A DNA stretch of 35,292 nt. Origin: a virus. Positions within the stretch are counted from its first letter, which is position 1; each line of letters opens with the position of its first letter. The stretch is taken from IMG/VR virus record IMGVR_UViG_3300044718_000029, positions 1-35,292 of that record; one strand, given 5' to 3'. The position numbers were made by a program, and so were the translations under genes. The notes beneath the pieces were generated by a model. It saw only the letters and a program-made list of their open reading frames with translations, was not told the origin of the DNA and did not search any database. Positions 1 to 29,004 of this stretch are shown here, in pieces.

Positions 1-116
1 TGCGGGCGAACACTTCCGCCGGTCGGGTATTGCTTACCGGGGACGTCGAGCTCGATGCTCAGGCAGATCTGCTGGTCACCCGGACAGATTTACGGGCTGA
101 TGTGCTGAAGGTTCCG

Positions 117-149
117 CATCACGGCTCTCGTTATACTCAGAGAGTACCG
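117..149 (+). other. attL, left attachment site in comEC
   Basis: The 5-bp core GGCTC (123-127) is shared with 35167-35171. Bases to its left are comEC coding sequence and bases to its right are element DNA. The element-derived arm ends with AGTACCG (143-149), the exact reverse complement of CGGTACT (35148-35154) at the other end. A circularised element would therefore have an attP of about 46 bp with inverted 7-bp ends around the core. Such a short, partly symmetrical attP beside the integrase gene is typical of large serine integrases. The exact crossover bases are inferred. Confidence 0.85.
132..137 (+). promoter_or_regulatory. -10-like hexamer inside attL, upstream of the integrase
   Basis: TATACT lies about 20 nt before the integrase start and is on the element side of the core, so it stays with the integrase in both attL and attP. 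No convincing -35 is visible. The sequence 17-18 bp upstream changes between the integrated and circular forms, so any promoter built on this hexamer would differ in strength between states. This is inference from a six-base match. Confidence 0.3.
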
Positions 150-157: not shown

Positions 158-1612
158 GTGACGACACGAGCAGCTCTCTACTTGCGGATCTCCGAAGACC
201 GCACGGGCGCCGGACTGGGCGTAGCCCGGCAGCGCGAGGCATGCGAGCAGCTATGCGCAGCCCGTGGCTGGGACATCGTCGAGGTGCTGGAAGAGAACGA
301 CACCAGCGCGTCAGGCAGCAAACCCCGCCCGCTGTTCGCCCGGCTACTCGCCCTGATCGAGGCCGGAGACATCGACGCCGTCGTCGTCTGGCACACCGAC
401 CGTCTCACCCGCAGCCTGACCGAGCTAGAGCACGTCATCGACGTCTGCCTACGCGACCACGTGAAGCTCGCCACGGCCTCCGGTGACCTCGACCTCTCCA
501 CCGACGCCGGCCGTCTCAACGCGCGGATCCTCGCCTCAGTGGCCCGAGCGGAGATCGAGCGCAAGTCCGCTCGACAACGCGCCGCGTTTGAGCAAGCCGC
601 CCGGGCGGGCAAGCCCACCGGAGGTCGCCGAGCGTTCGGCTACACCGCCGACCACCTGCACCTAGAGCCGACCAAGGCACCGATCGTCGCCGGCATGTTC
701 CAACGGTTCGCCGCCGGCGACTCCCTCGGCGAGATCATGCGCGACCTGAACAAACGCGAGATCCTCACGCCCCGCGGCAACACGTGGACGACCGGCTCCG
801 TCAAGACCGTGCTCCGAAACCCCCGCTACGCCGGGCTGCGTGGTGTGCGGCGCCTACGCCTCGACGCGCGAGGGCACACCACGAACACCGAAGCCGGCTA
901 CCTGCGCCGCGATCACTGGTACGACGTAGCGGGCCCGGCAGTGTGGCCCGGGATCGTCGAAGAGTCCATGTGGCGGGCCTGCGAACGCCGCCTACGCGAC
1001 CCCGCCCGCGCGGTCCACTACACCGGCAGCGTGCAGGTCTACCTGCTGTCTGGGCTCGCGGTGTGCGGGATCTGCGGGCAGAGACTCAAGAGCGGTACCC
1101 AAACCCACGGCCGGACCCTGAAATGCACAACGGGACCGGGACGTCACGTCAACCGTCGCGCCGAGCGCGTCGAGCAGTTCGTCGTCGAGGTGATCCTGGC
1201 TCGCCTCCGACGCCCGGACGCCATCCACCTAGTGCAACCACGCCGCAAAGGACCCGATCTCCACGGGCTGCGGGAGGAAGCGCAACGGCTCCGCACGAAC
1301 CTAGAGGGATACGCCGAGGACGCCGGAGCCGGCCGGCTGAGCCGCCACGAGTTCTACGCAATGCGGGAGTCCGCGGACCGTCGGCTAGGAGAGATTAACC
1401 GCGACCTCGCCGAGGCCGGACGGTCGGACGTAATGGCGCAATTTACCGGGATCACCAGAGACCCCGCCGAAGTGTGGGAGACGCTGTCCCTATCGGGCAA
1501 ACGAGCAGCCATTGACGCGCTAGCCGTCGTGCGGGTCTTCCCCGGCAAGAAAGGACGGCCGGCGGGTGGCCTCTTTGACTCCGACAGTGTGCTCATCGAC
1601 TGGCGGAGCTAG
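158..1612 (+). CDS. int: Large serine recombinase (phage integrase)
   Basis: A 484-residue site-specific recombinase that would integrate and excise the element by recombining attP with attB in comEC. The N-terminal resolvase domain carries the catalytic Ser12 in YLRISEDRTG, followed by conserved RQREACEQ and VVVWHTDRLTR segments. A recombinase domain follows (about 155-260), then a zinc-binding stretch (CGICG near residue 308, KC near 325) and a helical C-terminal part, as in large serine integrases. The GTG start overlaps the stop codon of the interrupted comEC frame (GTGA, 158-161), and no good ribosome binding site precedes it. Translation may therefore be leaderless, weak, or coupled to comEC in the lysogen. 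No excisionase (recombination directionality factor) is recognisable beside it. Confidence 0.95.
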   Translation: MTTRAALYLRISEDRTGAGLGVARQREACEQLCAARGWDIVEVLEENDTSASGSKPRPLFARLLALIEAGDIDAVVVWHTDRLTRSLTELEHVIDVCLRDHVKLATASGDLDLSTDAGRLNARILASVARAEIERKSARQRAAFEQAARAGKPTGGRRAFGYTADHLHLEPTKAPIVAGMFQRFAAGDSLGEIMRDLNKREILTPRGNTWTTGSVKTVLRNPRYAGLRGVRRLRLDARGHTTNTEAGYLRRDHWYDVAGPAVWPGIVEESMWRACERRLRDPARAVHYTGSVQVYLLSGLAVCGICGQRLKSGTQTHGRTLKCTTGPGRHVNRRAERVEQFVVEVILARLRRPDAIHLVQPRRKGPDLHGLREEAQRLRTNLEGYAEDAGAGRLSRHEFYAMRESADRRLGEINRDLAEAGRSDVMAQFTGITRDPAEVWETLSLSGKRAAIDALAVVRVFPGKKGRPAGGLFDSDSVLIDWRS

Positions 1613-2038: not shown

Positions 2039-2793
2039 CCACAAAAAAGAGCGGCGGCCCTCCCGTCAGAGGAACCGCCGCCACCAGCAAGACCTACCCC
2101 CATCAAGAAGTGGGTCGCCGTCGTGAGGGTAGCGCGGCACGTCGACAGTCGGTAGACGGAACGGACCCCGCATACGCTGCGGAGGAGTGGCGCCCCGTTG
2201 TTGGCTTCGAGGACAGCTACGCCGTCAGTGACCGGGGCCGGGTGCGATCTGTCGACCGCCTCGTCGAAGTCCTTAGCGGTCCCCGTGCTGGTGAGGTGCG
2301 GCTCCAGCGGGGCAGGCTCCTGCGGCAGTTCCCAGCTAAGGGCCGTCATCAGGTGACGCTGTGCCTGGCCGGTGTCCGGTCCCTCGTGGGGGTACATCAG
2401 CTCGTTGCCGCGGCATTCCTCGGCCCACGGCCACCTGGGCAGGTTGTTCGGCACCTCGACGACGTCCACGCGCACAACTGGGTCGGCAACCTCGCGTACG
2501 GCACCCATGCTGACAACAGTCAGGACGCTCTACGCAACGGCAGGCACCCGAAGGCAGCGTCGATGTGCTGCAAGCGCCAGCACGTCCTAGGAGGTCGCAA
2601 CCTCCGCCGGCCCCGGAAGTCCCCGCAGCAGAGGTACTGCGTCGCGTGCGGGAGAGCGTCCGCGTCCGTCTACCGGACCGGTGGCACCGAAGCGGACCTC
2701 CGACACCTCGCTGATCGCAAGTACCTCGACCTTATGGCCGGGGACTGGCCTGGCGCCGAGTACACCGACGCCCTGATCGAGGTGGCCTCGTGA
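2035..2793 (+). CDS. NUMOD4/HNH endonuclease
   Basis: A 252-residue protein with a NUMOD4-type segment (EEWRPVVGFEDSYAVSDRGRVRS, about residues 50-75) followed by an HNH core. The core has VGVHQLVAAAFLG, HLDDVHAHNWVGNL and a DNSQDALRNGRH tail (about 115-170), supplying the His, Asp/His and Asn residues of the fold. A C-terminal pair of CxxC-like groups (CCKRQH, YCVACGRA) could bind zinc. In phages such proteins are either homing endonucleases or nucleases that help packaging. This one lies far from the terminase and within the early operon, so the homing or early role is more likely. It overlaps its upstream neighbour by ATGA and its downstream neighbour by GTGA. The first 45 residues are low-complexity. 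Confidence 0.85.
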   Translation: MTTKKSGGPPVRGTAATSKTYPHQEVGRRREGSAARRQSVDGTDPAYAAEEWRPVVGFEDSYAVSDRGRVRSVDRLVEVLSGPRAGEVRLQRGRLLRQFPAKGRHQVTLCLAGVRSLVGVHQLVAAAFLGPRPPGQVVRHLDDVHAHNWVGNLAYGTHADNSQDALRNGRHPKAASMCCKRQHVLGGRNLRRPRKSPQQRYCVACGRASASVYRTGGTEADLRHLADRKYLDLMAGDWPGAEYTDALIEVAS

Positions 2794-3188
2794 GCATCGA
2801 GGTGATGACCCTCGTCTGGAAATCCGACGTCCAGCCCGTGAACGCCCGGATGACGCTCCTCGCGCTAGCCGACAACGCCAACGACCGCGGCTTGTGTTGG
2901 CCGTCCACCGCGCATCTCGCCGGTAAAACCGGATTGTCCCGCCGGACCGTGTTCCGTGTCCTCGCCCAGCTATCCGAGGAAGGTCTGATCGAGCGACTCG
3001 CTCGCACTCACCCCAGCGGTGCCCAAGCTGCCAGCGCCTACCGGATCGACGTCGAGGCGTTGCGGGCTCGCCGGCACGAGCTACCCGACCACGACGAGGA
3101 GACAGCTGACCTCGAACGCCGCTTCGCCGCGGCAGCAGGGGTGCCCGCTGGTCACCCCCCTATGACAGCAGTGTCACCCCCCCTATGA
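2790..3188 (+). CDS. Replication initiator, N-terminal half (helix-turn-helix)
   Basis: A 132-residue protein starting SIEVMTLVWKSDVQPVNARMTLLALADNANDRG, with a winged helix-turn-helix (LAGKTGLSRRTVFRVLAQLSEEGLI, about 45-70). This is the HTH_36-type N-terminal domain of phage O-like replication proteins. In most relatives the same chain continues through a Pro/Thr-rich linker into a C-terminal YPRK domain. Here the frame ends at TGA 3186-3188, straight after a run of seven C. The missing half is encoded in the next frame starting at 3185. An earlier copy of the same linker repeat has six C and stays open. This is either a split gene working by ATGA coupling or a one-base slip. Confidence 0.8.
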   Translation: MSIEVMTLVWKSDVQPVNARMTLLALADNANDRGLCWPSTAHLAGKTGLSRRTVFRVLAQLSEEGLIERLARTHPSGAQAASAYRIDVEALRARRHELPDHDEETADLERRFAAAAGVPAGHPPMTAVSPPL

Positions 3189-3706
3189 CACACAGACATA
3201 GCCCCCATGACACTGCTGGCACACAAGAACCGTCATTAGAACCATCAGTAGAACCATCACTAGAACCATCAGAAGCAACCCCTTTGATCACCGCTGTCGC
3301 GGCGACCGATGCGGATCTGCAGCCCGACGAGCCCACACTGCCAGGCATGCCCGCTACCGCTTCTAAGGCGAAGTCAAAACCCGGCCACGACGAGGCAGGG
3401 CAGGCCTTTGAGCAGTGGTGGCGGGTCTACCCCCGGAAAACCGGGAAGATCGCCGCACGGAAGCAGTGGGACACCGTGCTACGTAAGAGCCTGACCGACG
3501 TCGAAACCCTGATCCTCGGAGCGAAGCGGTACGCGGCCGCTGTCGAGGGCTCCCAGTTCGTCAAGTACCCGAAGACCTGGCTCAGTGACGGGTGCTGGGA
3601 CGACGAGGTCGTGCCGCCCTCCGACATCCGGCCCGCTGCCAGTAACCGCTACCAGCCTTACCGCGACGACCCCGACGAAGACGCCTACACGGGACCGATC
3701 GAGTGA
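3185..3706 (+). CDS. Replication initiator, C-terminal half
   Basis: A 173-residue frame with an unstructured N-terminal linker containing EPSLEPSVEPSLEPSE, then the conserved FEQWWRVYPRKTGKIAARKQW...ILGAKRYAA...FVKYPKTWLSDGCWDDE block (about residues 75-140) found at the C terminus of phage replication initiators with an HTH_36 domain. ATG 3185 overlaps the upstream stop (ATGA), and no purine-rich ribosome binding site precedes it. Translation must then come by re-initiation or by a -1 shift on the C7 tract, which would give a single protein of about 305 residues. Iteron-like repeats lie inside this gene and a long inverted repeat begins at its stop codon, so the replication origin may be here. 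Confidence 0.75.
   Translation: MTHRHSPHDTAGTQEPSLEPSVEPSLEPSEATPLITAVAATDADLQPDEPTLPGMPATASKAKSKPGHDEAGQAFEQWWRVYPRKTGKIAARKQWDTVLRKSLTDVETLILGAKRYAAAVEGSQFVKYPKTWLSDGCWDDEVVPPSDIRPAASNRYQPYRDDPDEDAYTGPIE
3227..3274 (+). repeat. Four tandem 12-bp iteron-like repeats
   Basis: Four head-to-tail copies at 3227, 3239, 3251 and 3263 follow the consensus GAACCATCANTA, the first with one change (GAACCGTC) and the last ending GAA. They encode the EPSx tetrapeptide repeats of the linker. They are more A+T-rich than the flanking sequence and sit inside the initiator gene, the arrangement seen for the initiator-binding iterons in phage lambda O. Whether they bind this initiator is inference; a simple coding repeat is the alternative. 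Confidence 0.6.
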
Positions 3707-5189: not shown

Positions 5190-5267
5190 CCCGTCAAGAG
5201 CCGCGCAGCGGTCCGAAGGACGGTTCCGTGCGGGGGAGGGGCCCCGTGCGGGTTCGCTCTTGACGGG
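5190..5267. repeat. 11-bp inverted repeat in a divergent intergenic region
   Basis: CCCGTCAAGAG (5190-5200) and CTCTTGACGGG (5257-5267) are perfect inverted copies 56 nt apart. Between them lie a small GTCC-gaa-GGAC hairpin and two CCGTGCGGG direct copies. The region separates two divergent genes and is about 4.5 kb from the relaxase start. It may be a regulator binding site, a looped promoter, or a relaxase recognition site. Confidence 0.45.
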
Positions 5268-5386
5268 TGAGGACGGTGTTAAACGATCCCCGCCAGGGTG
5301 AGAGGGGTAGAAGAGCAGCACGCCGGAGGCGTTCCACGCGGGTTACCTCCCGGCTGCTGTCCTACCGGCGTGTCACACTCGAACAC

Positions 5387-5764
5387 GTGGACGTGTCGCA
5401 GGCCCTCCCGCGAGTCCCAGCGCAAACCCTCGGACGCGCATCCCGCGCTGACTTCGGTCGCGTTTGGGAAGCCGCCGAGGCACTCAACGTCGCCCCCGGG
5501 CCCGAGGACTACTACCTCGCCGGCGTCGTCCGCACCCTGCGTTGGCTCGCCCGGCAAGGGCACCGCACACCCGTCACCCGCGCTGTGCGCTCCGCCATGC
5601 CAGAGGTGAACGAGGCCGAATACATGGCCGCTCTCGCCGCTTCCCGCTCGACGAAGCTCCACCCCATGCGCGTCGGTATCGCCCGGGGCACCGTGGCGGT
5701 ACTCGGGTGGCTCTACCACGGCCAACCCGAGCCCGCCCTCCCCGCGCTGAGCGACGCAGGCTGA
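5387..5764 (+). CDS. Hypothetical protein convergent with the relaxase
   Basis: About 125 residues if GTG 5387 is the start. An in-frame open stretch runs back to 5267, but its Arg-rich translation looks non-coding. The product begins DVSQALPRVPAQTLGRASRADFGRVWEAAEALNVAP, then YYLAGVVRTLRWLA and MPEVNEAEYMAALAA. It is soluble and helical, with no catalytic motif I can name. The stop lies one base from the end of the relaxase gene on the opposite strand, a tight convergent pairing that suggests the two belong to one module. No clear ribosome binding site supports the chosen start. Confidence 0.6.
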   Translation: MDVSQALPRVPAQTLGRASRADFGRVWEAAEALNVAPGPEDYYLAGVVRTLRWLARQGHRTPVTRAVRSAMPEVNEAEYMAALAASRSTKLHPMRVGIARGTVAVLGWLYHGQPEPALPALSDAG

Positions 5765-5765: not shown

Positions 5766-8700
5766 CTACCACTCCCAGGACGCGACGGGGTGATCCTCGG
5801 TCGCTTCTGCGTCCGCGAGGGCCTGATCCGCCGCATGCCACTGCCCGAGCCGACCGGCGTGCTCCTCGGCTTCGCGCGCTGCCTCCCACGCCACCCGCTG
5901 CGCCATCTCCTCCAACGCCCGGTGAGCCTCCTCGACGGCCTGCCGGGTCGTGTCCACGTCCGGCACCCGCGTCCAGCCCTCGGAGTTCTCGTCGAAGGCA
6001 GGATCGCCGGCGGCCGCGCCGCGAATGTCGGGGACCGGGATCTCCGCGACCATCACGGGACGCTCCTCGACCGGCGTCTCCCGCTCGACCGCGAGCTCGT
6101 CGACGTCCGCGTCGGTGACCACCTGCAGCGGCTCCTCAACCGCACGCTCCTCGCGGTGCGCAGTAAGCCACTCCTCCGCCGTGACCCGCTCGTCGGCTGA
6201 GTCCGGGTCGATACCCCGCGACGCCAACTCAAGCCGCGCCCGGTCCGCGTGGTACCTCGTCACCGCGGTGTGCACGAACCACTCCGCGCGCACGTTATCC
6301 GCTGCGAGCAACGCCGCGGCCTGCTCCTGCAGCACCACAGCACGCGCATCCGCGGCCGCTGCCTCCCCTGCCAGCCGGGTCCGCTCCGTCTGGTCGTCGC
6401 TGACCTCCGCGCGGACCCCGAGCAGAGTCGCGTCCGCTTGAGCGTCTTCCGCCGCGCGTGCCGTCCCGCCCGCGTCCTTCGCCACGTACGGCGGAGCCCA
6501 CGCGAGCTCCCGCTCGTAGGCCCGCACCTGCACCCGGAGGGCACCGTCGGACAGCTCCCACTCCTCGCGGGTGTCTTCCGGGCAGCCCAGAGCCCGATAC
6601 GACGCGCGCCAGGAGGCGTACTCCTCGACCCGTTGACGTGGCGGGGCACCTGGCAGGGCGACCGCGTCGTCGGTGTGCGCGGCGTGCTCCCGATGCGCAG
6701 CGACAACGCCGGCGCGCTCCACCCACTCCGCGCGCTCGTCACGACCGTCTGGGACGAGCCCGAACGCTTCGACCGCCCACTGCGGGCCCTCCTGCGCTGC
6801 CTGCTCCCCGAGCTCGTCGCGCCGGTGGTGCGCGGCTTGCGCAAGGTCGTCGAGGTGCTGCTGGTACGCCGGGTCCGCGACCTTCGGCACCCAGTCAGCG
6901 GGACTGTCACCCGCCGGGTCGAGGTCGACTCGGTCGGTGATCCGGTGGTGCAGGACGCTCGCAATGCTCCGGGCGTTGCCGAGTTCCCGCTCCACCACCG
7001 CGCCCGTGAGGACGTCCAGCGGGTCATGCCCGGCGACCTCGGCTTGCCGGAGCACCCGGGAGAGCGTCGCGGTGTTCTCGTCGAGGGTCAGTGCCATGCG
7101 CTGCGACTCGGAGATCACGTCTCGGTCGAGGAGGTGGTCGAGCAGGGCCTCAGTCCGACCCACGGCTTGCCGCTCGGCGACCTCGGCCAGCCGCTCCATA
7201 GCGGTCCGCACGGACCTCATTTCTCGAGAAGACTCCTCCGCCTCGACCAGCGCAGCGCGGTCACCACTGCCGTCCTCATGGGAGCGGTCGAGCACGGCCA
7301 GCGGGTCGACTCGCTCGATCGTCTGCCCCGGCCGCACATCGGTCGCGTCGGCGATGGTCTGCACGTACGCGGTGTTCGAGTCCCGCCCGCGGGTCATCTC
7401 GACGTACTGCGCGGATCGGCCGGTGTTCGAGGTGGCTACGGAGTGGCTGGTGTCGACGGTGGTGCCCTCGACGGAGTGCACGGTGCTCGCGTAGCCGAGC
7501 GCGAGATCCTTCGCGACGTACTCCGCGGGCAGGACGAGACGGTCGCCGAGCTGCTCACCGTCCGCGCCATGGCCGGCCACGTGGGCGACGTCGAGCCCGC
7601 CGTCGGCCCGCACGCCGAGGACGCGGTACTGCTCCCGGGTGACCGGGCCTCGCCGGTTCCCCTCGTGCCCGGCCAGCTCCCACGCCAGCCGCCGTGCCTC
7701 GACGAGATCCCCGACGCCGGCCGTGGTGCCCTGCCGACCGAGCGTCACCCCGTGCTCCGTGACCTTCCCGAGCTCGACGAGCTCCGCGCGAACCCGAGCG
7801 GACACCTCCGCTGCCTGATCGTTGGTGTCGACCAGCAGCCGCGTGTCCCGACCGGTGAGGTAGTCCGCGAGGTACCCCTTCACTGCCGCACCTGCAGCGT
7901 CCGCGTACGTGCCCCCGTCGACGATCCGCCCGTGCTTGCGGTACTCCACCAACGCCGACACATCGCCCTCGCGGAGCCGCAACCCCGCCGCTGCCTCCCA
8001 CTCGTGCGTGAACCGACGAGGCTCCGTCAACCGGTAGGAGATCCCGGTCGCCTCGACCATGCTCATCGCCCCACCTGCACCGACCGCGGCCAACTGCCGG
8101 TGGTCACCCGCGAGGAGCAGCTTCGCCCCGGCCGCGTGCACGTGCTCCCGGATCGCTGCGACGGCCGGTGTGTTCGCCATCGACGACTCGTCCAGCACAA
8201 CCAAATCACCGGCCCGTAGCGCGAGACCCTGATCGGCGGGGTTGGTGCCGCCGCCGGCGAGACGTTCCTGCGCGTTGAGCCACGCGGTCACATTGCGCGC
8301 GGTGAGACCCACCTCCGCGAGCTCCTCCGTGGCGATCTGAGCGGTGGCCAGCCCGAAACACCGCTGCCGCGCACCACCCCATAGGCCGGGGTCCGTCCAC
8401 GCCCGGGCCACCGCACCCACCACCCGGGTCTTACCGGTCCCGGCGGGCCCGACGAGCGACTCGACGTACGCACCGGAGGTCAGGATCCCCTCGATCGCCG
8501 CTGCCTGATCTTTCGCGAGCACGAAGCCCGTCTCCGTGAGGGACGCGGTGAAGAACGCCGCCAGCTCCGCGTTAGTCGCCGTGGCGCCGCGCTCAACGCT
8601 CGCAGCGCGGATAGCCCGCTCGGACCGTAGGTGGTCATTCGAGGCGTACAGCTCCGTACCGGGCCGCTGATGACTCGACAACCCGTTCGCTAACCGCTCC

Positions 8701-10112
8701 GCGTCCGGCAACGTCGCCGCACCGGGCGCCTCAGCGGTCAGCTTCGAGCAGTGCTCCCCGATGCCCTCACCGGCCAGCCCGGACACGAGCTCCTCGACCT
8801 CCGCGGCAGTGAGCCCACCCAGGTAGTCAGGCAACGCGGAGTCAACGGCCCGGATCACGTCGGCCTCATGGAACCGTGACTGCACCGCTTGTGCCTTCGC
8901 GACCGCCATCTCCCGGACCGCTTTCGGGTCGAACTCGCCGGCGACCTGCTCACGGTCAGCCGCCCGCAACGCAGCCCACGCGACACCCGCGAGCCCACTG
9001 TCGACGTCCGCGAGGAGACCATCGGAGGTCTCCCGGACCATCCGATCCCACCGGGCGAGCCGCTCGTCGACCGTCTCCCCGGCGTGCTCTTTACCCGGCC
9101 GCGTCGCGAGGGTCGCGACCTTCGACAGCCGGTACAGCTCCAAGGCGTTCGGGGCCCGCCCGCGCTGCGCCTCGAACCGCTCGACGAGCTGCGCCGTCTT
9201 CGGTGTGATCGCCCGGGTACGAGACGAGAACAGGTCGATCACCCGCTGATCGACACCCACGATCTCCCGGGCCTGCCCGTCTGGCCGCTCCGCGACGGTC
9301 ACGCCGAGCGTGCTCACCAACCGCTCGAACATGACCCGGTCACCGATCGCCCCTGCAGCGCCCTTGTGCAGCTTGACGGCGTCCCAGTCGATCGCCCGCC
9401 ACTTCCCGTCCGGGCCCTGCACCTTGTTCAGGATCGCGTTGTGGATGTGGAGCTGCGGGTCGTGGTTGCGGGAGTCGTGCTGAAAGAACGACGCGACGGT
9501 CCATGCGTGGGCGTCTTGCCAGGTGCCGCTGGCTGGCCCGTGGTGCCCGGTGCGGGTGTACCCCCCGTGGCGCGCGAGGTAGTCGACCGACGCCGCGCTG
9601 CCCACCCGGACGGCGTCCTCGACGGCCCGCCGGTGTGCCGCCCATTGCAGGGCAGCGTCGAGGTCACCTCTGGCCCGGGCTTGCATCTCCTGCGCCTCGA
9701 ACGCGAAGAACAGCACCGTGACCGACTTCGGTGGCGAGAACGTCGCGTCGTAGAACGCCACGGTCTCCCGCGCTTCCTTCCCCGCCGAGACGCGCATGAG
9801 TTCCCGCTCCTCCGCCGAGGCGTGCGGGTTGGCCTCCAACTTCCGCGCGTACAGCTCCTCGGCCTTCGAGTAGTTCCGCCGCGCGTTACCGAGCACGGTC
9901 TCCCCGTCCCGTGGGTCGAGGAACTGCCCGTAGAGGCCTGCGATCACCTCGGCGTTGACCTCACCGGCCAGCCCGAGCGCCGTCGCACCCAGCCCGGACC
10001 ACACACCGGGAGGCTCACCGGCGGCTACGGCGTCGCTGTAATAGGCCTCGCGACCAGCGGCAACCGACTCCGTGAGGTAGTCGATGGAGTGCCCGATAGA
10101 GAAGCTCAACAC
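5766..10112 (-). CDS. MobF-type relaxase with SF1 helicase domain (TrwC/TraA-like)
   Basis: A 1448-residue conjugative relaxase. The N-terminal TrwC domain has tandem tyrosines Y24-Y25 (AYYSD), candidates for the nicking residue, a FYDATFSPPKSVTVL motif (about 120-134), and the three-histidine metal site FQHDSRNHDPQLHIHN (H212, H222, H224). The RecD/TraI-type helicase has Walker A GPAGTGKT (555-562), Walker B VVLDESSM (about 637-644) and a C-terminal HSVEGTTVDTSHSVA...YVEMTRGR block. A long charged helical tail follows. The protein would nick at an oriT and unwind the strand for transfer. The GTG start overlaps the end of an upstream frame. No secretion, coupling-protein or TraB/FtsK gene is in the element, so it could at most be mobilised, or it may have been adapted for replication. 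All catalytic residues appear intact. Confidence 0.93.
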   Translation of the reverse strand: MLSFSIGHSIDYLTESVAAGREAYYSDAVAAGEPPGVWSGLGATALGLAGEVNAEVIAGLYGQFLDPRDGETVLGNARRNYSKAEELYARKLEANPHASAEERELMRVSAGKEARETVAFYDATFSPPKSVTVLFFAFEAQEMQARARGDLDAALQWAAHRRAVEDAVRVGSAASVDYLARHGGYTRTGHHGPASGTWQDAHAWTVASFFQHDSRNHDPQLHIHNAILNKVQGPDGKWRAIDWDAVKLHKGAAGAIGDRVMFERLVSTLGVTVAERPDGQAREIVGVDQRVIDLFSSRTRAITPKTAQLVERFEAQRGRAPNALELYRLSKVATLATRPGKEHAGETVDERLARWDRMVRETSDGLLADVDSGLAGVAWAALRAADREQVAGEFDPKAVREMAVAKAQAVQSRFHEADVIRAVDSALPDYLGGLTAAEVEELVSGLAGEGIGEHCSKLTAEAPGAATLPDAERLANGLSSHQRPGTELYASNDHLRSERAIRAASVERGATATNAELAAFFTASLTETGFVLAKDQAAAIEGILTSGAYVESLVGPAGTGKTRVVGAVARAWTDPGLWGGARQRCFGLATAQIATEELAEVGLTARNVTAWLNAQERLAGGGTNPADQGLALRAGDLVVLDESSMANTPAVAAIREHVHAAGAKLLLAGDHRQLAAVGAGGAMSMVEATGISYRLTEPRRFTHEWEAAAGLRLREGDVSALVEYRKHGRIVDGGTYADAAGAAVKGYLADYLTGRDTRLLVDTNDQAAEVSARVRAELVELGKVTEHGVTLGRQGTTAGVGDLVEARRLAWELAGHEGNRRGPVTREQYRVLGVRADGGLDVAHVAGHGADGEQLGDRLVLPAEYVAKDLALGYASTVHSVEGTTVDTSHSVATSNTGRSAQYVEMTRGRDSNTAYVQTIADATDVRPGQTIERVDPLAVLDRSHEDGSGDRAALVEAEESSREMRSVRTAMERLAEVAERQAVGRTEALLDHLLDRDVISESQRMALTLDENTATLSRVLRQAEVAGHDPLDVLTGAVVERELGNARSIASVLHHRITDRVDLDPAGDSPADWVPKVADPAYQQHLDDLAQAAHHRRDELGEQAAQEGPQWAVEAFGLVPDGRDERAEWVERAGVVAAHREHAAHTDDAVALPGAPPRQRVEEYASWRASYRALGCPEDTREEWELSDGALRVQVRAYERELAWAPPYVAKDAGGTARAAEDAQADATLLGVRAEVSDDQTERTRLAGEAAAADARAVVLQEQAAALLAADNVRAEWFVHTAVTRYHADRARLELASRGIDPDSADERVTAEEWLTAHREERAVEEPLQVVTDADVDELAVERETPVEERPVMVAEIPVPDIRGAAAGDPAFDENSEGWTRVPDVDTTRQAVEEAHRALEEMAQRVAWEAAREAEEHAGRLGQWHAADQALADAEATEDHPVASWEW

Positions 10113-10495
10113 GGAGCGTCACCGCCTTTGATCTGCCCGCAAGCGCAGCGCCGCGGGGGGTTCGGTTGGCCGACGGATCGGTGATGCATGGGTCTGTGCT
10201 CTGTTCTGGCGATCTTGGTGTGTGTCTTGGTGGTGTTCTCTGTGCTCTCTGGTCTTGGTGTCGTGTTGCGCTCTGTAACTAGTTCGTGGTGTCTGGTCTT
10301 GCGCTGCTGATGACTGTGAGTTGTGTCTGCTGGTGGTGTGCTGGTGATGCTGGTGTCCTCGTCGTGGTGGTCGGCTCGGTCGTTGGAGTGCTGGTCTGGT
10401 CTTGTGCCGCTGAGTTGCCGAGGTGTTCTGGTGTCGAGCTGGTGGCCGTGCGTGAGGTGGTGGCTACAGCGGGCCTCTGGTGGATGGGACGGCAC
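10106..10495 (-). CDS. Possible 129-residue leader ORF before the relaxase
   Basis: An open frame, His/Thr/Arg/Gln-rich and mostly low-complexity, ends PRRCACGQIKGGDAPC, and its stop overlaps the relaxase start (GTGTTGA). That overlap and the tidy Cys-containing end argue for translation of at least the 3' part; an internal ATG gives a 27-residue peptide MHHRSVGQPNPPRR... The biased composition comes from the C/A-rich strand and could equally be chance in a non-coding leader. No ribosome binding site is clear. Confidence 0.3.
   Translation of the reverse strand: MPSHPPEARCSHHLTHGHQLDTRTPRQLSGTRPDQHSNDRADHHDEDTSITSTPPADTTHSHQQRKTRHHELVTERNTTPRPESTENTTKTHTKIARTEHRPMHHRSVGQPNPPRRCACGQIKGGDAPC
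10190..10480. other. G/T-rich low-complexity strip upstream of the relaxase
   Basis: About 290 bases of the + strand are almost free of A and dominated by TGGTG, GTCTG and CTCTG words; the - strand (relaxase sense) is correspondingly C/A-rich and G-poor. RNA made towards the relaxase would be unstructured and C-rich, the character of a Rho utilisation site. Single-strand-like skew is also seen near transfer and replication origins. The neighbouring genes show no such bias. Confidence 0.5.
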
Positions 10496-10687: not shown

Positions 10688-11240
10688 TCGACCGGTCGCG
10701 GGTGGGTGGGCAGCGGGTGGCGCGGGTGAATCGCCCGCCTCATCGCCCGCCCGGTCGCCCGGGCACCCAGCGGGAGAGGAGCGGCGTCACCCACCGCCCA
10801 CCCGGTAGGTCACCCACAACCGCACAAGCACCCGGCCGCGTCCAGTCGACCGACCGCCGCCCGGTTCGCCCGGTCGATTACGCGGAGGGACTCACCCGGG
10901 AACCCACACCCGCAGGTGTCAGGGTCGTCCCAGTCGCCCCACCCGCAGCCGCACCCAGCGGTCGGGCGGGTGACGGCGGGTGACGCGGTGAGCTGCGGGG
11001 ATGCGCCGGTCCGTACGTCGGTCGCGTTCATGGTTGGCACCTTTCTCGATTGACGGGGGATAGCGGTAGATCGACCGCCCGGAGTGGGCGATCTATGACC
11101 CGCCCACCTACTGCCCGGGCGAAACGGGCGGTCGAGGGTGGAGTCGGTCGATGGGTGACCCGGCGGGTGATGGTCGACCGACCGGTCGATGGTCGAGCGG
11201 GAGACCCGGGCGGGCGATGGGAGACCGAGCGGGCGGTCGA
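10688..11240. repeat. Cluster of TCGACCG / CGGTCGA repeats
   Basis: At least nine copies of the heptamer in both orientations occur at about 10688, 10846, 10871, 11071, 11129, 11145, 11174 (a compound copy to 11196) and 11234. The 10-bp palindrome CGACCGGTCG occurs twice, at 10689-10698 and 11178-11187, on either side of the 73-residue Cys-rich gene. Interleaved CGGGCG and CCCGCC words add to the repetitiveness. It resembles a multi-site binding region (oriT, partition site or operator). The stretch 10496-10809 otherwise contains no gene I can support. Confidence 0.5.
10810..11031 (-). CDS. 73-residue Cys/Gly-rich protein
   Basis: Starts at ATG 11031 behind GAAAGGT; the upstream in-frame extension falls in the repeat field and is unlikely to be coding. 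The product has three Cys clusters, GCGCGWGDWDDPDTCGCGF and AGCLCGCG at the very end, around a helix RVIDRANRAAVGRLDAAG. Seven cysteines in 73 residues suggest a zinc-binding or redox-sensitive fold. I do not recognise a named family. It lies upstream of the relaxase on the same strand and inside the repeat cluster, so a DNA-binding accessory of the transfer module is possible but unproven. Confidence 0.6.
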   Translation of the reverse strand: MNATDVRTGASPQLTASPAVTRPTAGCGCGWGDWDDPDTCGCGFPGESLRVIDRANRAAVGRLDAAGCLCGCG

Positions 11241-11261
11241 TCTCCCGCTGACGTCGCCCGC

Positions 11262-11571: not shown

Positions 11572-11650
11572 ACGTGGTATAGATGACAGCGGAGCGGGAG
11601 GTCAGCCACGATGGCGACGGTTCGGCCAACATTCGACCGAGAGGACCTCG

Positions 11651-11857
11651 ATGAAGCTCACACTGCTGGCAAAGGACAACTCCTCAGGCCGGGAGGGCTG
11701 CCCGTCGGTCTACTGCGCCGAGGATGGCTCGCTGGTCGTACAGGGAGACCTGCTGGACTCGACGACCGAGGCGAACCTGCTCAACGTGCTGCCCGGCGAA
11801 GGCGCGGTACGCATCAAGCCGGAGATCGTGCGCGAAGCACTCGCTCGCTTGACGTGA
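11651..11857 (+). CDS. 68-residue protein, first gene of the DUF6879/XRE operon
   Basis: Begins MKLTLLAKDNSSGREGCPSVY after the ribosome binding site GAGAGGA. The rest, EDGSLVVQGDLLDSTTEANLLNVLPGEGAVRIKPEIVREAL, is a small folded protein without membrane segments. I know this arrangement, short protein then DUF6879 then XRE/DUF5753, as a recurrent actinobacterial cassette of unknown role. The stop overlaps the next start (TGATG). A longer frame from 11611 passes through this stretch in another phase and is not a gene. Confidence 0.75.
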   Translation: MKLTLLAKDNSSGREGCPSVYCAEDGSLVVQGDLLDSTTEANLLNVLPGEGAVRIKPEIVREALARLT

Positions 11858-12426
11858 TGCTGCCGGGTGTTGCGGAGCTGCGTGAGCAATTCCGCACCTT
11901 CCGGTACTCAGCGTTCCGCCTAGAAACCTTGCAGGCCTACGCCGGCTCCGACGAGGACCCCGCGCGGCTCGCCTTCCAGCGGGGCGACCTAACACCGCCC
12001 CCAGACCCACACCAGGAACAGTGGCTCGCCATGCTCCGCGGACACCGCGACGCCGGCCGTACCCAACAGCGGGTGCACATCGTGCGCGAGCCACTGTCCG
12101 ATTACCTGGCATTCGAGCTCACCTGGGAATACGGCCCCCATGTGGCCGCGGGAGAGGACATCCGCATCATCCCGGTCACCGACACATGGCCCGTCGACGT
12201 GCCCGGCAGGGACTTCTGGCTGTTCGACTCCCAGCAATTGTTCGATCTGAACTACGACGTGGCCGGCAACTGGCTCGGCGTCCAACACAACACAGACCCG
12301 GTAGCGGTAGCGCGTGCGGGTTTCGTCCGTGATGCCGCGCTTCACCAGTCCACGCCCTGGGCTGACTACATGGCGACTAAACCTGCGTTGCTGCAACGGC
12401 TGCCGAGGGGTGATGACGATGCCTAA
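11857..12426 (+). CDS. DUF6879 family protein
   Basis: 189 residues from ATG 11857 (GTG 11854 is also in frame). Conserved features include RYSAFRLETLQAY near the start, GRTQQRVHIVREPLSDYLAFELTW in the middle, and a C-terminal DFWLFDSQQLFDLNYDVAGNWLG block. This matches the DUF6879 family found next to XRE/DUF5753 regulators throughout actinobacteria. No biochemical function is established as far as I know. It overlaps its upstream partner by one base and the downstream regulator by about eight bases, so all three are co-translated. Confidence 0.8.
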   Translation: MLPGVAELREQFRTFRYSAFRLETLQAYAGSDEDPARLAFQRGDLTPPPDPHQEQWLAMLRGHRDAGRTQQRVHIVREPLSDYLAFELTWEYGPHVAAGEDIRIIPVTDTWPVDVPGRDFWLFDSQQLFDLNYDVAGNWLGVQHNTDPVAVARAGFVRDAALHQSTPWADYMATKPALLQRLPRGDDDA

Positions 12427-13282
12427 GGTCAGCCCGCCACGTGCCGCGCTCGGCGCGCGACTGCAAGAACTCCGCGCGAGCAAGTTCCGCTCCGGTGCCG
12501 CACTGGCCCGTCAGCTCGGTTGGGTGCAGACCCGCGTCAACAAGCTGGAGCACGGCTACCAGCTCCCCAGCCCCGCAGACCTAGACGCTTGGGTAGCGGC
12601 CACCGGATCCGGTCCCGACGTTCGTGCCGAGCTGGGAAACCTGCTCACACAAGCGCGGGTCTCGTACACCTCATGGACCGAGGTTTATCGGTCAGGTGGC
12701 ATCGCCGACTGGCAAGCCGACATCGCAACGTCAGAAGCGCAAGCGGGGACGCTCTGCGGGTACCAGCCGTCAATGATCCCGGGCCTACTGCAAACCGTGG
12801 CCTACGCCAGAGAGCTGCTCACGATCCCCGGCGGACCTGTGCTCACAGGCGCGTCGGCTGAGCAGATCGACGCCCTGATCGCCGAGCGGATCAAACGTCA
12901 AGGGCTGCTGTACGAGCCCGGTCGACGAGTGCAGGTGGTGCTTGGTCAGGCCGCGCTCACCGTGCATTTCGGATCCGTCGAGACTCTGCACGCACAGCTG
13001 GACCGTTTAATAGCCCTGTCCGATCTCCCGTCTGTCGACCTGCGGGTGCTGCCCGCCGCAGTGGCGTCACCGGTCATGCCCCTGTCTGGCTTCTGGCTTG
13101 ACGAGGCGGGGGTCTACATCGAGACGTTGAAGGGGGAGCAGACCTTGACTGGCCAGGACGATCTCGCCATGTTCCGCAAGGCCTTCGATCTGCTCCACGC
13201 CGCGTCCGCCGGCGGCCGGGACGCAGTGGCCCTGATCCAGCGTGTCGCCGCTGAGTCACGAGGGCTAAACGCTCTCTCCTAG
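12419..13282 (+). CDS. XRE-family regulator with DUF5753 domain
   Basis: About 287 residues from ATG 12419 (ATG 12413 is an alternative); GAGGGG precedes it. An N-terminal XRE helix-turn-helix (LGARLQELRASKFRSGAALARQLGWVQTRVNKLEHG, about 10-45) is joined to a DUF5753 domain (YQPSMIPGLLQTVAYARELL through to AVALIQRVAAE). DUF5753 proteins in actinobacteria usually work with a small DUF397 or DUF6879-like partner. In this prophage it is the only repressor-like protein, so it is the best candidate for a lysogeny regulator, though such cassettes are also chromosomal developmental regulators. Confidence 0.88.
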   Translation: MPKVSPPRAALGARLQELRASKFRSGAALARQLGWVQTRVNKLEHGYQLPSPADLDAWVAATGSGPDVRAELGNLLTQARVSYTSWTEVYRSGGIADWQADIATSEAQAGTLCGYQPSMIPGLLQTVAYARELLTIPGGPVLTGASAEQIDALIAERIKRQGLLYEPGRRVQVVLGQAALTVHFGSVETLHAQLDRLIALSDLPSVDLRVLPAAVASPVMPLSGFWLDEAGVYIETLKGEQTLTGQDDLAMFRKAFDLLHAASAGGRDAVALIQRVAAESRGLNALS

Positions 13283-14188: not shown

Positions 14189-14304
14189 TCGGAACGCTGA
14201 GCGAGGTGACCGCGCGTCGATCTACACCCTCCGTATAGGGAACGCGACGTAGCGTATGTTTCCAACAACCGGTGAAAACCCGGCATGCACCCGGTGAGGT
14301 GACA

Positions 14305-14772
14305 ATGCCCCCCAGACGTCGCGGCGGTGAAGCGAAGCGGGTCAAGTCCGAAGCGCAGATCGCCGAGGAACAGGTCCGCTGCTACGAGCTCAAACTCTCC
14401 GGGCTGAGCTACCTACGGATCTCCGGGGAGACCGGACTGTCCGTCGGGACGGTGCACAACCGGATACAGGCCCGCAGCGCGCAGCGCGTCGACCCCCTCG
14501 CCGAGGAACACCGCGCGATCGAGCTCGACCGGCTCGACCGGTGGTTAGAGAAGCTCGACGCGCAGATCCAAGCCGGTGAAGCCGTCGCCCGAAACGTCGA
14601 GGTCGCCGTCAAGGTCTCCGAGCGTCGCTCGAAGCTCCTCGGCATGGACTCTGCAGACAAGCTCGAAGTGACCACCACCGAAGTCACTCAAGCCGATTTG
14701 GAGCTCGCCGAGCTCCTACGGGAAGCGAAAGCCCGCAACGCGGCGCAAGAGTCAGCACTCGGCAGCGGATAG
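14305..14772 (+). CDS. Terminase small subunit
   Basis: 155 residues from ATG 14305 behind GAGGTGA. A helix-turn-helix (YELKLSGLSYLRISGETGLSVGTVHNRIQ) is followed by a long charged helical oligomerisation region (DRLDRWLEKLDAQIQAGEAVARNVEVAVKVSERRSKLLGM), as expected for a DNA-recognising small terminase. It is immediately upstream of the large subunit. The 116 bp before it contain ACGC-gacgta-GCGT and are a plausible place for the packaging site (cos or pac), but nothing in the sequence proves that. Confidence 0.85.
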   Translation: MPPRRRGGEAKRVKSEAQIAEEQVRCYELKLSGLSYLRISGETGLSVGTVHNRIQARSAQRVDPLAEEHRAIELDRLDRWLEKLDAQIQAGEAVARNVEVAVKVSERRSKLLGMDSADKLEVTTTEVTQADLELAELLREAKARNAAQESALGSG

Positions 14773-14778: not shown

Positions 14779-16329
14779 GTGACCACGGCCGTTGCCCTCG
14801 ACCACATCGCACCCGCCCCGCCAGTAGAGCCCGGGTTCGACTGGCTCACCTACCTGTGCAGCTTCGACGAGCGGCTCCTCACCAGTCCCGAAGGTCGGCG
14901 CACCCTCACTCGGCATGACCCGCTGCTCTGGGCGTTGTTGTACTTCCGGCACCACCTCCGGTCATCCGAGACCGGGGACCGGATCAGTTTTTCCCAGTTC
15001 CACCTTGACCTATGCGAACGGGCGAAGCGATGGGCGAGGAAAGACCTCGCACCGGGGGAGATCCGGGAAGCGTGGGTCGCGCCCCGCGGGTCAGGTAAGA
15101 GCTCCTGGCTCTTCCTCATCCTGCCGCTCTGGGCCCTCGCCCACGGCCACCGCTCCTACGTCATGGCCTTCACCGACTCCGGTGGGCAGGGGGAGCAGCA
15201 CCTCACGAGCGTCAAGGGGGAGCTCGACGGCAACACCCTCCTCCGCCGCGACTTCCCCAACTTGTGCCGCGCGGCCGCCCGCCAGCGCGGCACCGCAGTC
15301 GCCGACAACCGCTCCCTATTCATCGCCCGATCCGGCGCGGTGTTCTCCGCGAAGGGCATCGACTCGTCATCGCTCGGAGCGAAGGTCGGCAACAAACGCC
15401 CCGACTTGCTCCTCTTCGACGACGTCGAGCCCGACGCCTCGAACTACTCCGCGTACCAGAAAGAGAAGCGGCTCGCGACGATCCTTAACGCCGTCTTCCC
15501 CATGAACGACCGGGCAGTCGTGCAGATCGTCGGCACGACCACGATGACCGGCAGCATCATCCACGACCTCGTAAAGACTGTGACCCTGCCCGGTGAGCCG
15601 CCGGCGGAGTGGATCCTCGACGAGCGCGTCGTGACCTACCTCTACCCGGCGATTCAGGTACTCGACGACGGCAGCGAGCGGTCGATGTGGCCTCAGCGGT
15701 GGCCTCTAGCGTTCCTCCTGTCGATCCGGCACACCCGCGCGTACCGCCTGAACTACGCGAACGACCCCATGGCCGCCGACGGCGACTATTGGGGCCCCGA
15801 AGACTTCGCCTACCGCACACCCGTCCCGCTCACCCACCAGATGTTGAGCATCGACCCCGCGGTGACGAGCAAAAAGAAGAGCGACTACACCGCCCTCGCA
15901 GTGATCGGCTACAGCAAACCCCGCCGGGAATGCGTGGTCCGCTACGGCCGCGCGTTCCGCATCTCACCCGGCGAGGAGCTCCGGCTGCTCGTTCTCCGCA
16001 CCCTCGAAGCGTTCCCCGATGTCTCCGGTGTGGTCGTCGAAACCAATCAGGGGGGCGACGCCTGGCGCGCGATCCTCCATGGCCTCCCGGTGCCGATTAA
16101 GACGGTTCACCAGAGCGAACCGAAGGAAGTCCGGGCCGCTCGGCTGCTCAACCACTACCAGCGTCGGCGCGTCGTCCACGAACAACGCCTACACGCGGTC
16201 GAAGAGCAGATGATCGGATTCCCGAAAGCACCAAACGACGACCTCGTCGACGCCGTCGGCACCGGCGTGACCGTGTTCCTCGGCAGGAAACGCACCGCCG
16301 GGATCACCACTAGCAGCTACGTCGCATAG
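14779..16329 (+). CDS. Terminase large subunit
   Basis: 516 residues. The packaging ATPase has Walker A APRGSGKSS (101-109), Walker B LLLFDDVE (210-217) and a coupling motif VGTTTM (251-256). The RNase H-like nuclease begins at SIDPAVTSKKKSDYTALAVIG (metal-binding D359) and ends with APNDDLVDAVGTG near residue 490. The motor pumps DNA into the prohead and cuts it. All catalytic motifs are intact. The GTG start follows the small-subunit stop by six bases. Confidence 0.95.
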   Translation: MTTAVALDHIAPAPPVEPGFDWLTYLCSFDERLLTSPEGRRTLTRHDPLLWALLYFRHHLRSSETGDRISFSQFHLDLCERAKRWARKDLAPGEIREAWVAPRGSGKSSWLFLILPLWALAHGHRSYVMAFTDSGGQGEQHLTSVKGELDGNTLLRRDFPNLCRAAARQRGTAVADNRSLFIARSGAVFSAKGIDSSSLGAKVGNKRPDLLLFDDVEPDASNYSAYQKEKRLATILNAVFPMNDRAVVQIVGTTTMTGSIIHDLVKTVTLPGEPPAEWILDERVVTYLYPAIQVLDDGSERSMWPQRWPLAFLLSIRHTRAYRLNYANDPMAADGDYWGPEDFAYRTPVPLTHQMLSIDPAVTSKKKSDYTALAVIGYSKPRRECVVRYGRAFRISPGEELRLLVLRTLEAFPDVSGVVVETNQGGDAWRAILHGLPVPIKTVHQSEPKEVRAARLLNHYQRRRVVHEQRLHAVEEQMIGFPKAPNDDLVDAVGTGVTVFLGRKRTAGITTSSYVA

Positions 16330-16338
16330 GAGAACGTG

Positions 16339-17781
16339 ATGACGATCGCCGTGGACGGCCCCCTCGCCGTAGCTGGTGCTGAGATCGCCGAAGACCGGGT
16401 CGGGGACCTCATGGCCGGCCTCGACGAGCTCGACGACGCCACCCCCGGATACGTGCGGGCCGCGGCCTACTACGCCGGCGACGTCCCCGAGTTCTTCGCG
16501 TCCGCGCGTCTCCGCCGGGCCATGGCCGCTACCGGCGCGGCGTTCCATTTCAACTTCGCGAAGATCCCCGTCGACGCCGTCGTCGAACGGCTCCGCCTCG
16601 CCGCGGTCACCTGCACCGACGCGACCGCCGATAAGGCACTGCGGGACATCTGGCTCCGAAACAAGATCGCTCTACAGTCCCGGCAGGTCATACGCCGGGC
16701 CTGCGAGTTCGGCGACGCTTACGTGATCGTCTGGCCAAACCCCGACGACGACGGTATCGACATCCTCTACAACTCCCCGCGCTGCATGCGGGTGATCTAC
16801 GACGAGGAAAACCCGCTCCGAAAGTCCTACGCGGTCAAACGGTGGACCGACGGAGACCGGATCCGCGTCGATCTGTATTACCCGGACCGGATCGAGAAGT
16901 GGGTCACGAAGCCCAAAGCGAAGGGCGACAAACCCGGCGATTGGATCGAGCACGTCGACGAGCTCGGCGACTCCTGGCCGTACGACAACCCGTTCGGCGA
17001 GATCCCCGTCTTTCACTTCCGCACCGACCAGCCCTACGGCGTCCCCGAACATCACGGGTTCTACGGCCCGCAGGACGCGATCCACAAACTGATCCTGTCC
17101 CACATGGCCGGAGTCGACTACCAGGCGTTCCCGCAGCGGTACGCCCTGCTCCACCCCGACACCGACAGTTCCGAAGCCGCCGCGGAAGACGAGGATCTGT
17201 TCGCCTTCGCCGATGAGGGCACCGGCGCGACCGTTCCGCCAGCCGGTGAGGCCCGCTCGCAGTACACCGCTGACCCCGGGTCGCTTTGGACCATGAGGGG
17301 CACAGCAAGCGTCGGCCAGTTCCAAACCGCTGATCATGCGAACTTCACGGAGCCGATGCTCACCTACCTCCGCATGGGCTCCGAGGTCACGAACACGCCC
17401 CTGCACCGGGTCGACCCCACCGGGGACCACCCGTCCGGCGAGTCCCTCCGCACCGCGGAGGCACCGTTCGTCCACAAGGTCGAAGACCGGCAGCTCTCAT
17501 TCGGCGATACATGGCGGGAGCTGTTCGGGTGCGCGCTGCGGATGGCCGGCTACGGCTCCGCCGAGGTCACCGTCCGGTGGACACCAGCGCAGACCGTGAA
17601 CGACCTCGAAGGCTGGCAGACCGTGGCCTCGAAGCTCGACGCCGGTGTCCCACCCGCGCAGGCGTTCCTCGAAGCCGGCTACTCCGACGAGCAGGTCGAC
17701 GCATGGTTCGGGGCAGACGGTTGGAAACCCCGGCCCCGACTGGCGCCTGCACCGCCACCCCCGCCCGGTAACGCACCGTAG
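16339..17781 (+). CDS. Portal protein
   Basis: 480 residues from ATG 16339 after AGGAGA (GTG 16336 is also in frame). It resembles SPP1 gp6-type portals: an N-terminal helical region, the DAVVERLRLAAV segment, a central beta-rich wing (FGDAYVIVWPN...RCMRVIYDEENP...AVKRWTDGDRIRVDLYYPDRIEKW), then GEIPVFHFRTDQPYG and a late stem/crown with PLHRVDPTGDHPSGESLRTAEAPFVHKVEDRQ. The dodecameric portal would sit at one capsid vertex as the DNA gate. It ends in a Pro-rich tail. No MuF-type head morphogenesis gene follows. Confidence 0.92.
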   Translation: MTIAVDGPLAVAGAEIAEDRVGDLMAGLDELDDATPGYVRAAAYYAGDVPEFFASARLRRAMAATGAAFHFNFAKIPVDAVVERLRLAAVTCTDATADKALRDIWLRNKIALQSRQVIRRACEFGDAYVIVWPNPDDDGIDILYNSPRCMRVIYDEENPLRKSYAVKRWTDGDRIRVDLYYPDRIEKWVTKPKAKGDKPGDWIEHVDELGDSWPYDNPFGEIPVFHFRTDQPYGVPEHHGFYGPQDAIHKLILSHMAGVDYQAFPQRYALLHPDTDSSEAAAEDEDLFAFADEGTGATVPPAGEARSQYTADPGSLWTMRGTASVGQFQTADHANFTEPMLTYLRMGSEVTNTPLHRVDPTGDHPSGESLRTAEAPFVHKVEDRQLSFGDTWRELFGCALRMAGYGSAEVTVRWTPAQTVNDLEGWQTVASKLDAGVPPAQAFLEAGYSDEQVDAWFGADGWKPRPRLAPAPPPPPGNAP

Positions 17782-17810
17782 CCTCACATCACGGAAGGAA
17801 TGGAGAGCAC

Positions 17811-18377
17811 ATGGCCGCCGACACCGACACCGACGACGACACGATCGACACCGGAGGCGACGACACCGGAGCCGACAACAGCACCGACTCCGCCAGCGGC
17901 ACCGACTGGAAACCACCGTCGAAAGACGAATGGGACCGGCAACAGCGGGCCCTGACGAAGGCCAACGCCGAAGCAAAGACCCGGCGCGAGGCCCTCCAAG
18001 CCCTGCAACGCAAGACGGAAGACGAGACGGGCAAAGCCGCCCGGGAGCAAGCCGAGGCAGCCGAGAAGCGATACAAGCCCGTAGCCGTCCGCTCGGCCGC
18101 TAAGGCAGCGTTCCTCGAAGCCGGCCTGCAGGGTGGGACACCGGAGCGCATCGCGAAGCTCGTCCGCATGCTCGACCTCGACGCTATCGACGTCGACGCG
18201 GACGGTGACGTCACTGGCCTCGACGCGCAAGTCGCCGCGGTGAAAGCCGAAATCCCGGAGCTGTTCACCGTTCAGGATAAGAAACCGCCGAAGGTGACCG
18301 TCGGCGATAAGTCGGGCACGAACGGGAAACCGAAGCGGTCGAGCGATCTGCTCGCCGCACGAGTTCTAGGAGGGTGA
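17811..18377 (+). CDS. Capsid scaffolding protein
   Basis: 188 residues after GGAGAG. It has a strongly acidic Asp/Thr-rich N terminus, a long charged helix (about 40-90: KDEWDRQQRALTKANAEAKTRREALQALQRKTEDETGKAAREQ) and a basic C terminus with GKPKRSSDLLAARVLGG. This composition and its place between portal and capsid are typical of phage scaffolds, whose C terminus binds the capsid protein. Sequence alone gives no catalytic site; a protease fusion is not apparent. Confidence 0.8.
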   Translation: MAADTDTDDDTIDTGGDDTGADNSTDSASGTDWKPPSKDEWDRQQRALTKANAEAKTRREALQALQRKTEDETGKAAREQAEAAEKRYKPVAVRSAAKAAFLEAGLQGGTPERIAKLVRMLDLDAIDVDADGDVTGLDAQVAAVKAEIPELFTVQDKKPPKVTVGDKSGTNGKPKRSSDLLAARVLGG

Positions 18378-18379
18378 CT

Positions 18380-19122: not shown

Positions 19123-19153
19123 TCACGTAATTGGATCTATGCTCCGCGGCGTG

Positions 19154-19171
19154 GGCGTCAAGTGTGACGCC
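19154..19171 (+). promoter_or_regulatory. Hairpin in the capsid gene leader
   Basis: GGCGTCA-agtg-TGACGCC is a perfect 7-bp stem with a tetraloop about 100 bases before the major capsid gene. A second, weaker stem (GCAGC...GCTGC) follows. The 147-bp gap 19123-19269 has no gene. The hairpin may terminate the upstream messages, stabilise the capsid mRNA 5' end, or both. The highest-expressed virion gene commonly has such a leader. Confidence 0.5.
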
Positions 19172-19269
19172 ACAGGTGAGGCAGCCGGAGTGCTGCGGCA
19201 GCCATAGGCGACCCGGATGGGCGCGGAGGCATCCCCCATCCATTCACCGGTCCCGAAGGGCTGTAGGTC

Positions 19270-23246: not shown

Positions 23247-23258
23247 GAAAGGGGCGAC

Positions 23259-27517: not shown

Positions 27518-27526
27518 GAGGAAACC

Positions 27527-28768: not shown

Positions 28769-28773
28769 GGGCC

Positions 28774-29001: not shown

Positions 29002-29004
29002 CCC

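Follow-up and report, generated by a model that had tools for sequence, protein, structure and literature searches.

What role could a relaxase have in a tailed phage? The question is raised by IMG/VR virus record IMGVR_UViG_3300044718_000029, which we analysed over positions 1 to 35,292 (the window) and in which a gene for a MobF relaxase-helicase lies inside a siphovirus prophage. The initial annotation offered two answers: that the phage can be both packaged and mobilised by a resident conjugative system, or that the relaxase has been taken over for rolling-circle replication. We favour the former with moderate confidence, reading from the sequence that the phage would double as a virus and a hitch-hiking mobilisable element, its relaxase nicking its own origin of transfer (oriT) and a helper supplying transfer. 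The evidence consists of a prophage complete from one attachment (att) site to the other, an intact relaxase, a conserved nic-like motif, a shared partner gene, and recurrence in phage contigs.

Relaxase, candidate oriT and partner gene

The relaxase open reading frame (ORF; 5766-10112, minus strand) runs for 1448 codons without an internal stop. Its N-terminus matches the Pfam relaxase domain TrwC (E 6.5e-51, residues 9-360), characteristic of MobF, and its C-terminus matches AAA_30 (E 1.5e-41), a RecD-like SF1 helicase. Alignment with 13 relatives showed that the tandem Y24/Y25, D122 and the His triad H212/H222/H224 are retained, as are the helicase motifs (Walker A GPAGTGKT at 555-562, Walker B DE at 641-642). 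A phmmer search against structures matched TrwC (1OMH, 2CDM) and TraI (3L57). The full-length MobF relaxase described in the initial annotation, with its tyrosine pair, three His and intact Walker motifs, is confirmed by all three approaches.

Upstream of the gene is an A/C-rich non-coding leader; comparable tracts precede the motif described below in integrated elements L066-L070. The 129-aa ORF 10106-10495(-) was discarded as a candidate accessory gene, being an A/C-rich tract that drew no call in a coding-bias scan. Within the leader, 70-84 bases upstream of the relaxase start codon, CAGACCCATGCATCA is the sole match on either strand of the window, at one mismatch or fewer, to CACACCNNNGCATYA, with 0.07 expected for this pattern, which was chosen after seeing the sequences and derived from the same comparison. 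Relaxase upstream regions of actinobacterial plasmids, phage contigs and integrated elements have CACACCNNNGCATYA in common. Seven integrated elements of one genome (G268) have a single copy each, the L067 copy with one mismatch, and phage contigs G673, G675, G676 and G678 have the motif ahead of the relaxase; a form with one extra spacer base was spotted by eye in G674, and the end of G672 is too near the gene to judge. The complement of the window motif reads GATGCATGGGTCT^GTG on the + strand, and GGTGT^G is found in most other elements. Known MobF nic sites include GGTGT^GG of F and GTCT^ATA of R388. Because the complement resembles these sites, the motif region is likely to be the cognate oriT of the window relaxase; nic would then fall at 10195/10196, with + as the transferred strand and the leading region to the right.

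A small gene lies convergent with the relaxase. Its homologues are directly 3′ of, and convergent with, the relaxases of L066, L067, L069 and L070, all of them elements of G268; a plasmid search with ORF 5267-5764 gave no match. The best full-length plasmid matches to the relaxase itself are about 31-37% identical, and identity to chromosomal elements is 45% for Pseudonocardia ammonioxydans (L039) and 45-50% for the seven G268 loci. In the tree the window relaxase is sister to five Pseudonocardiaceae elements (support 100/99). Because the convergent gene is common to the integrated elements, the mobilisation module (relaxase, oriT and small partner gene) is, judging from sequence comparison, imported from the MobF integrative elements that are frequent in such hosts. 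In L070 and L039, the loci checked, a VirD4-type coupling protein (T4CP) is encoded upstream of the relaxase.

The chromosome of G268, a complete Pseudonocardiaceae genome (L066-L073), has seven MobF relaxase loci with one nic-like motif each. Such crowding of some host-group genomes with MobF elements bearing near-identical nic motifs (the seven of G268) would suit a relaxase that helps lysogen or phage in competition with other elements, for instance if it nicked or titrated the oriT sites of resident MobF elements, or mobilised these and not the phage. A cis site beside the gene is superfluous for such a role, which we consider very unlikely.

Prophage ends and gene content

Read in one direction, the first ~122 and last ~125 bases of the window encode the C-terminal part of ComEC, half of it at each end. 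Joined into an 82-aa fragment, they found matches in 318 of 395 actinobacterial genomes, the best (67%) in a gene that encodes Competence and Lactamase_B domains. As the two best-matching genomes (G064 and G076; 67% and 64%) came from the draw for the Pseudonocardia ammonioxydans family, the host is probably a member of the Pseudonocardiaceae, a soil-type actinobacterium. A GGCTC core recurs at both ends (about 123-127 on the left, about 35167-35171 on the right), and the element that these cores delimit measures about 35.04 kb. Terminase, portal, capsid, tail and integrase genes all lie between these sites, as in a temperate tailed phage, and the window is a complete siphovirus prophage from att to att. 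The siphovirus context recognised initially is borne out by virion gene matches, and the comEC and att ends are new. Insertion in comEC would split the lysogen's competence gene; comEC is also the target of the streptococcal prophage Phi1207.3.

Both ends being comEC halves, with the integrase beside attL, the relaxase is internal to the prophage and does not belong to an adjacent element; an integrated plasmid beside a phage was rejected since both ends are halves of one comEC. The record does derive from an IMG/VR contig and does show a step in GC at the relaxase region, so one might suspect a chimeric assembly, or an integrated plasmid and adjacent prophage trimmed as one virus. Besides the ends and integrase, the codon usage of the relaxase, near that of the virion genes (relative synonymous codon usage r 0.91), and comparable arrangements in independent contigs speak against this, and we regard an artefact as extremely unlikely. 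The GC of the relaxase region is raised (70-73%); at third codon positions (GC3) the relaxase has 0.866 and the virion genes 0.847, and the excess sits at first positions (GC1), reflecting amino-acid composition. The GC step was therefore rejected as proof of recent import.

The window encodes an integrase and a relaxase, has an oriT predicted from the motif, and lacks a T4CP, a composition that may be that of an integrative and mobilisable element (IME). Tblastn of four actinobacterial T4CPs against it gave nothing better than E 0.018, and no FtsK domain, the mark of the FtsK/SpoIIIE-type translocase of actinomycete integrative and conjugative elements (AICEs), was present in the window ORFs scanned; the absence of a coupling protein and of a TraB-type translocase, as first noted, is upheld. 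No mating pore was found in the window, where VirB4 was not the subject of a separate search. The element is also unlike a phage-plasmid, being integrated in comEC with a serine integrase and having no par genes among the ORFs scanned.

Other features are collected in Table 1. The replication initiator is split into two overlapping ORFs, and inside the second are four 12-bp iteron-like repeats (AGAACCATCA..) at 3226-3273. The stretch that separates the relaxase leader from the DUF6879 gene has CGGTCGATGGGTGACCCGG-type repeats at 10700-11260, with a 20-bp inverted repeat at 11062-11081/11230-11249. The glycosyltransferase cluster, opposite in orientation to the tail genes, is conserved in relatives, and is upstream of the terminase in one of them (G001).

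Table 1. Positions of genes and sites in the window.
Feature	Position	Strand	Evidence or remark
Host comEC 5′ of insertion; attL core GGCTC within about 117-130	1-122	+	frame 3 reads ...VLLTGDVELDAQADLLVTRTDLRADVLKVPHHGS
Large serine integrase adjoining attL	158-1612	+	Resolvase 1.6e-30, Recombinase 2.1e-18, phrog_95 4.6e-96
O-like replication initiation genes (overlapping ORFs 2790-3188 and 3185-3706)	2790-3706	+	phrog_391/1032/270
Small gene convergent with relaxase	5267-5764	+	34-40% identical ORFs in four integrated elements
MobF relaxase-helicase	5766-10112	-	1448 aa; Pfam, motif alignment, phmmer, tree
A/C-rich non-coding leader holding putative oriT	10113-10480	-	
Nic-like motif CAGACCCATGCATCA (consensus CACACCNNNGCATYA)	10182-10196	-	fixed-pattern scan and recurrence
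DUF6879 protein and XRE/DUF5753 regulator pair	11611-13282	+	PF21806 9e-49, DUF5753 1.8e-34
Probable terminase small subunit	14272-14772	+	role inferred from position; its match phrog_645 is labelled RNase E
Terminase large subunit (TerL)	14779-16329	+	phrog_38 4.3e-67
Portal, scaffold, major capsid protein (MCP)	16336-20214	+	phrog_104 5.7e-73, phrog_194, phrog_10 1.2e-20
Tail genes: major tail protein, tape measure (SLT domain), minor tail proteins	22686-30773	+	
Glycosyltransferase genes, right end, opposite orientation	32139-34796	-	phrog_7162 5e-58; GT2 2.9e-12, GT4-type 2.3e-12
attR core GGCTC at about 35167-35171 and host comEC 3′ of insertion	35164-35292	+	frame reads HGSRFNAEEFLATVRPRVAIVSVGAHNSYGHPSQHVLDTLAAK

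MobF relaxases in other phages and in relatives of this one

Viral contigs searched with the relaxase alone as query gave no match; an alignment was needed. The alignment-based scan yielded seven further IMG/VR contigs (G672-G678) whose matches span most of the relaxase, at 40-44% identity in the best segments; the G677 copy is truncated by the end of its contig. Four of the seven (G674, G675, G676 and G678) also encode a T4CP. In G678 (72 kb), TerL, portal, MCP and tape measure are followed by the relaxase module and coupling protein, a serine integrase and lastly exonuclease and primase genes; the order is repeated in G676 (69 kb), where the integrase is of the tyrosine type and Erf and replication-initiation genes come next. 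In both, the module is clearly inside the phage genome, because it stands between late genes and integrase with phage replication or recombination genes beyond. Comparison of these two relaxases indicated purifying selection (dN 0.07, dS 0.55, the nonsynonymous and synonymous divergences). The six of these contigs that were checked have no end repeats.

In the tree the relaxases of the seven contigs group apart from that of the window, with those of integrated elements between, and a single clade of all eight phage relaxases was rejected (p-AU 1.3e-12). Because of this separation, phages probably took up the module independently at least twice. A relaxase had been called unusual for a tailed phage; that was right, but the case is not unique, the seven contigs being joined by Mycobacterium phage Adler (see below). 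The two-route reading gains strength from the likely oriT and from these other phage contigs, with their relaxases, oriT-like sites and, in four, coupling protein.

Several observations weigh against mobilisation. The window motif has one substitution, CAGACC for CACACC (a variant present also in the Pseudonocardia plasmid pBCI2-1), and, 3′ of the core, one additional base. In a position weight matrix scan it was the best site of the window, at 11.1 bits, but the mean null maximum from whole-window shuffles was 11.5; as the matrix does not separate the motif from shuffles, the oriT claim rests on the fixed-pattern test, position and recurrence. Folding of the nic region revealed no unusual structure (z -0.75). 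The window is without the coupling protein and upstream genes that other phages and elements keep, and no endolysin was recognised among its ORFs scanned, an SLT domain occurring in the tape measure only. Finally, phage relatives with 77-84% identical portal and MCP have no relaxase.

None of 30 contigs related by portal or terminase, many of which are fragments, has the gene. Because the closest phage relatives are without it, the relaxase is, on this comparison, an accessory gene. The prospect that it is a recent insertion absent from otherwise identical prophages is borne out only in part: it is absent from relatives, but no recent clean insertion is visible, because the relaxase differs by about 50% from the nearest relatives known and has phage-like codon usage, and the early region of the phage relatives differs throughout from that of the window. 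One close relative, a 36389-bp IMG/VR contig (G009, L040/L041; MCP 84%) with a 127-bp end repeat (circular), has a 699-aa FtsK/SpoIIIE-domain protein (3.4e-6) adjoining its serine integrase and a small membrane protein before it, an arrangement that recalls AICE transfer genes. Host genomes gave no case of a relaxase beside an MCP: G268 has both, megabases apart, and G260 has no TrwC match. The relaxase alignment found no match in G505, G351 or G260.

The absence of the relaxase from related phages, with the lack of coupling protein and upstream genes in the window, would also be expected of a passenger, a module captured by illegitimate recombination, unused, and with decay yet to come. There is no close relative for measuring selection on the window relaxase, since dS between it and the others is about 0.9-1.1, near saturation. 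Set against this are an unbroken 1448-aa frame that has kept every motif over about 50% divergence from its nearest relative, the retention of the nic-like motif and partner gene, independent captures in other phages, and the purifying selection in G676 and G678; we think an idle passenger rather unlikely.

The absence of the relaxase from phages with similar head genes implies that the family does not need it, which bears on the rolling-circle alternative, whereby the relaxase nicks the motif and the resulting replication feeds packaging. Relaxases and rolling-circle initiators have common chemistry, the gene is close to the replication genes, and its helicase domain is intact. The phage nevertheless has its own O-like initiator genes and the 12-bp iteron-like array, the site is of the type adjoining the relaxases of conjugative relatives, and a coupling protein accompanies the relaxase in other phages. 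The proposal is weakened by the initiator and array, and now seems distinctly unlikely.

Proposed mobilisation route and known systems

Mobilisation of the excised circle by a helper is the simplest reading because relaxase and cis site are both intact at large divergence. The integrase would excise the prophage as a circular phage genome, which the relaxase would nick at about 10195/10196 on the + strand; the helicase domain would unwind the nicked circle while the relaxase stayed covalently bound to the strand. The relaxase-strand complex would be handed to the coupling protein and mating pore of a co-resident conjugative element, and in the recipient the strand would recircularise and then integrate. 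Nicking, transfer and the need for a helper are what we infer here. VirB4-like ATPase matches occurred in all four host-group genomes checked, and a pore component may be available in the hosts.

The closest parallels are the Pseudonocardiaceae integrative MobF elements (L066-L073, L039), which share with the window a full-length relaxase (45-51%), the nic-like motif and, in four, the convergent gene. At those loci a coupling protein is encoded and the surroundings showed no virion genes; the window, by contrast, is a whole phage that lacks a coupling protein. These elements are of the kind at which an earlier search for integrative and conjugative elements of Actinobacteria based on a type IV secretion system was aimed (PMC3218068). 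IMEs (PMC5704250) resemble the window in having their own integrase, a relaxase, a likely oriT and no mating pore found; the window has, in addition, siphovirus head, tail and terminase genes. Contigs G672-G678 are, like the window, tailed-phage contigs with a MobF relaxase and, where visible, the motif, but have other virion lineages (phrog_9 terminase; phrog_283 MCP in G678) and a separate relaxase branch, four with T4CP.

P1-like phage-plasmids and plasmids derived from them (PMC10879196) are also phage-related elements with mob/oriT. Among the phage-plasmids all but two lack these functions, which occur mostly after loss of phage functions (PMC10879196); the window is an integrative phage that has kept its virion genes. 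Phi1207.3, a Streptococcus pyogenes prophage in comEC like the window, undergoes conjugation-like transfer by a mechanism stated as unknown (PMC4260502). This cell-to-cell transfer fits conjugation, and the word "relaxase" is absent from the paper (PMC4260502); the window, known here from sequence alone, has a relaxase and a candidate site. Mycobacterium phage Adler (KF981876/KC960489) is an annotated phage record with a MobF-like relaxase (L047). It differs in being a 95.7-kb circular record whose relaxase is only 24% identical and lies in the same 15 kb as VirD4-like and EccD genes; CACACCNNNGCATYA was not found in the Adler stretch read. The main text of a survey of actinobacterial prophages makes no mention of relaxases or conjugation (PMC10023795).

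In a limited search of the open-access literature, no description of MobF relaxases and oriT in integrative siphoviruses was found. What appears new here is an integrative siphovirus with a relaxase and likely oriT, an association recurring across lineages. For the broader proposal, that actinobacterial temperate phages repeatedly capture MobF relaxase-oriT modules, often with a coupling protein, and use them for conjugative spread as a dual-route class, we see the case as evenly balanced.

Gene transfer by phages and gene transfer by conjugative elements are commonly regarded as distinct routes. If the mobilisation reading is true, a prophage could leave a living cell by mating, needing neither lysis nor a particle receptor. 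The combination of relaxase, motif and terminase in one att-bounded element would provide a sequence-based test for prophages with apparent conjugative transfer, an old puzzle.

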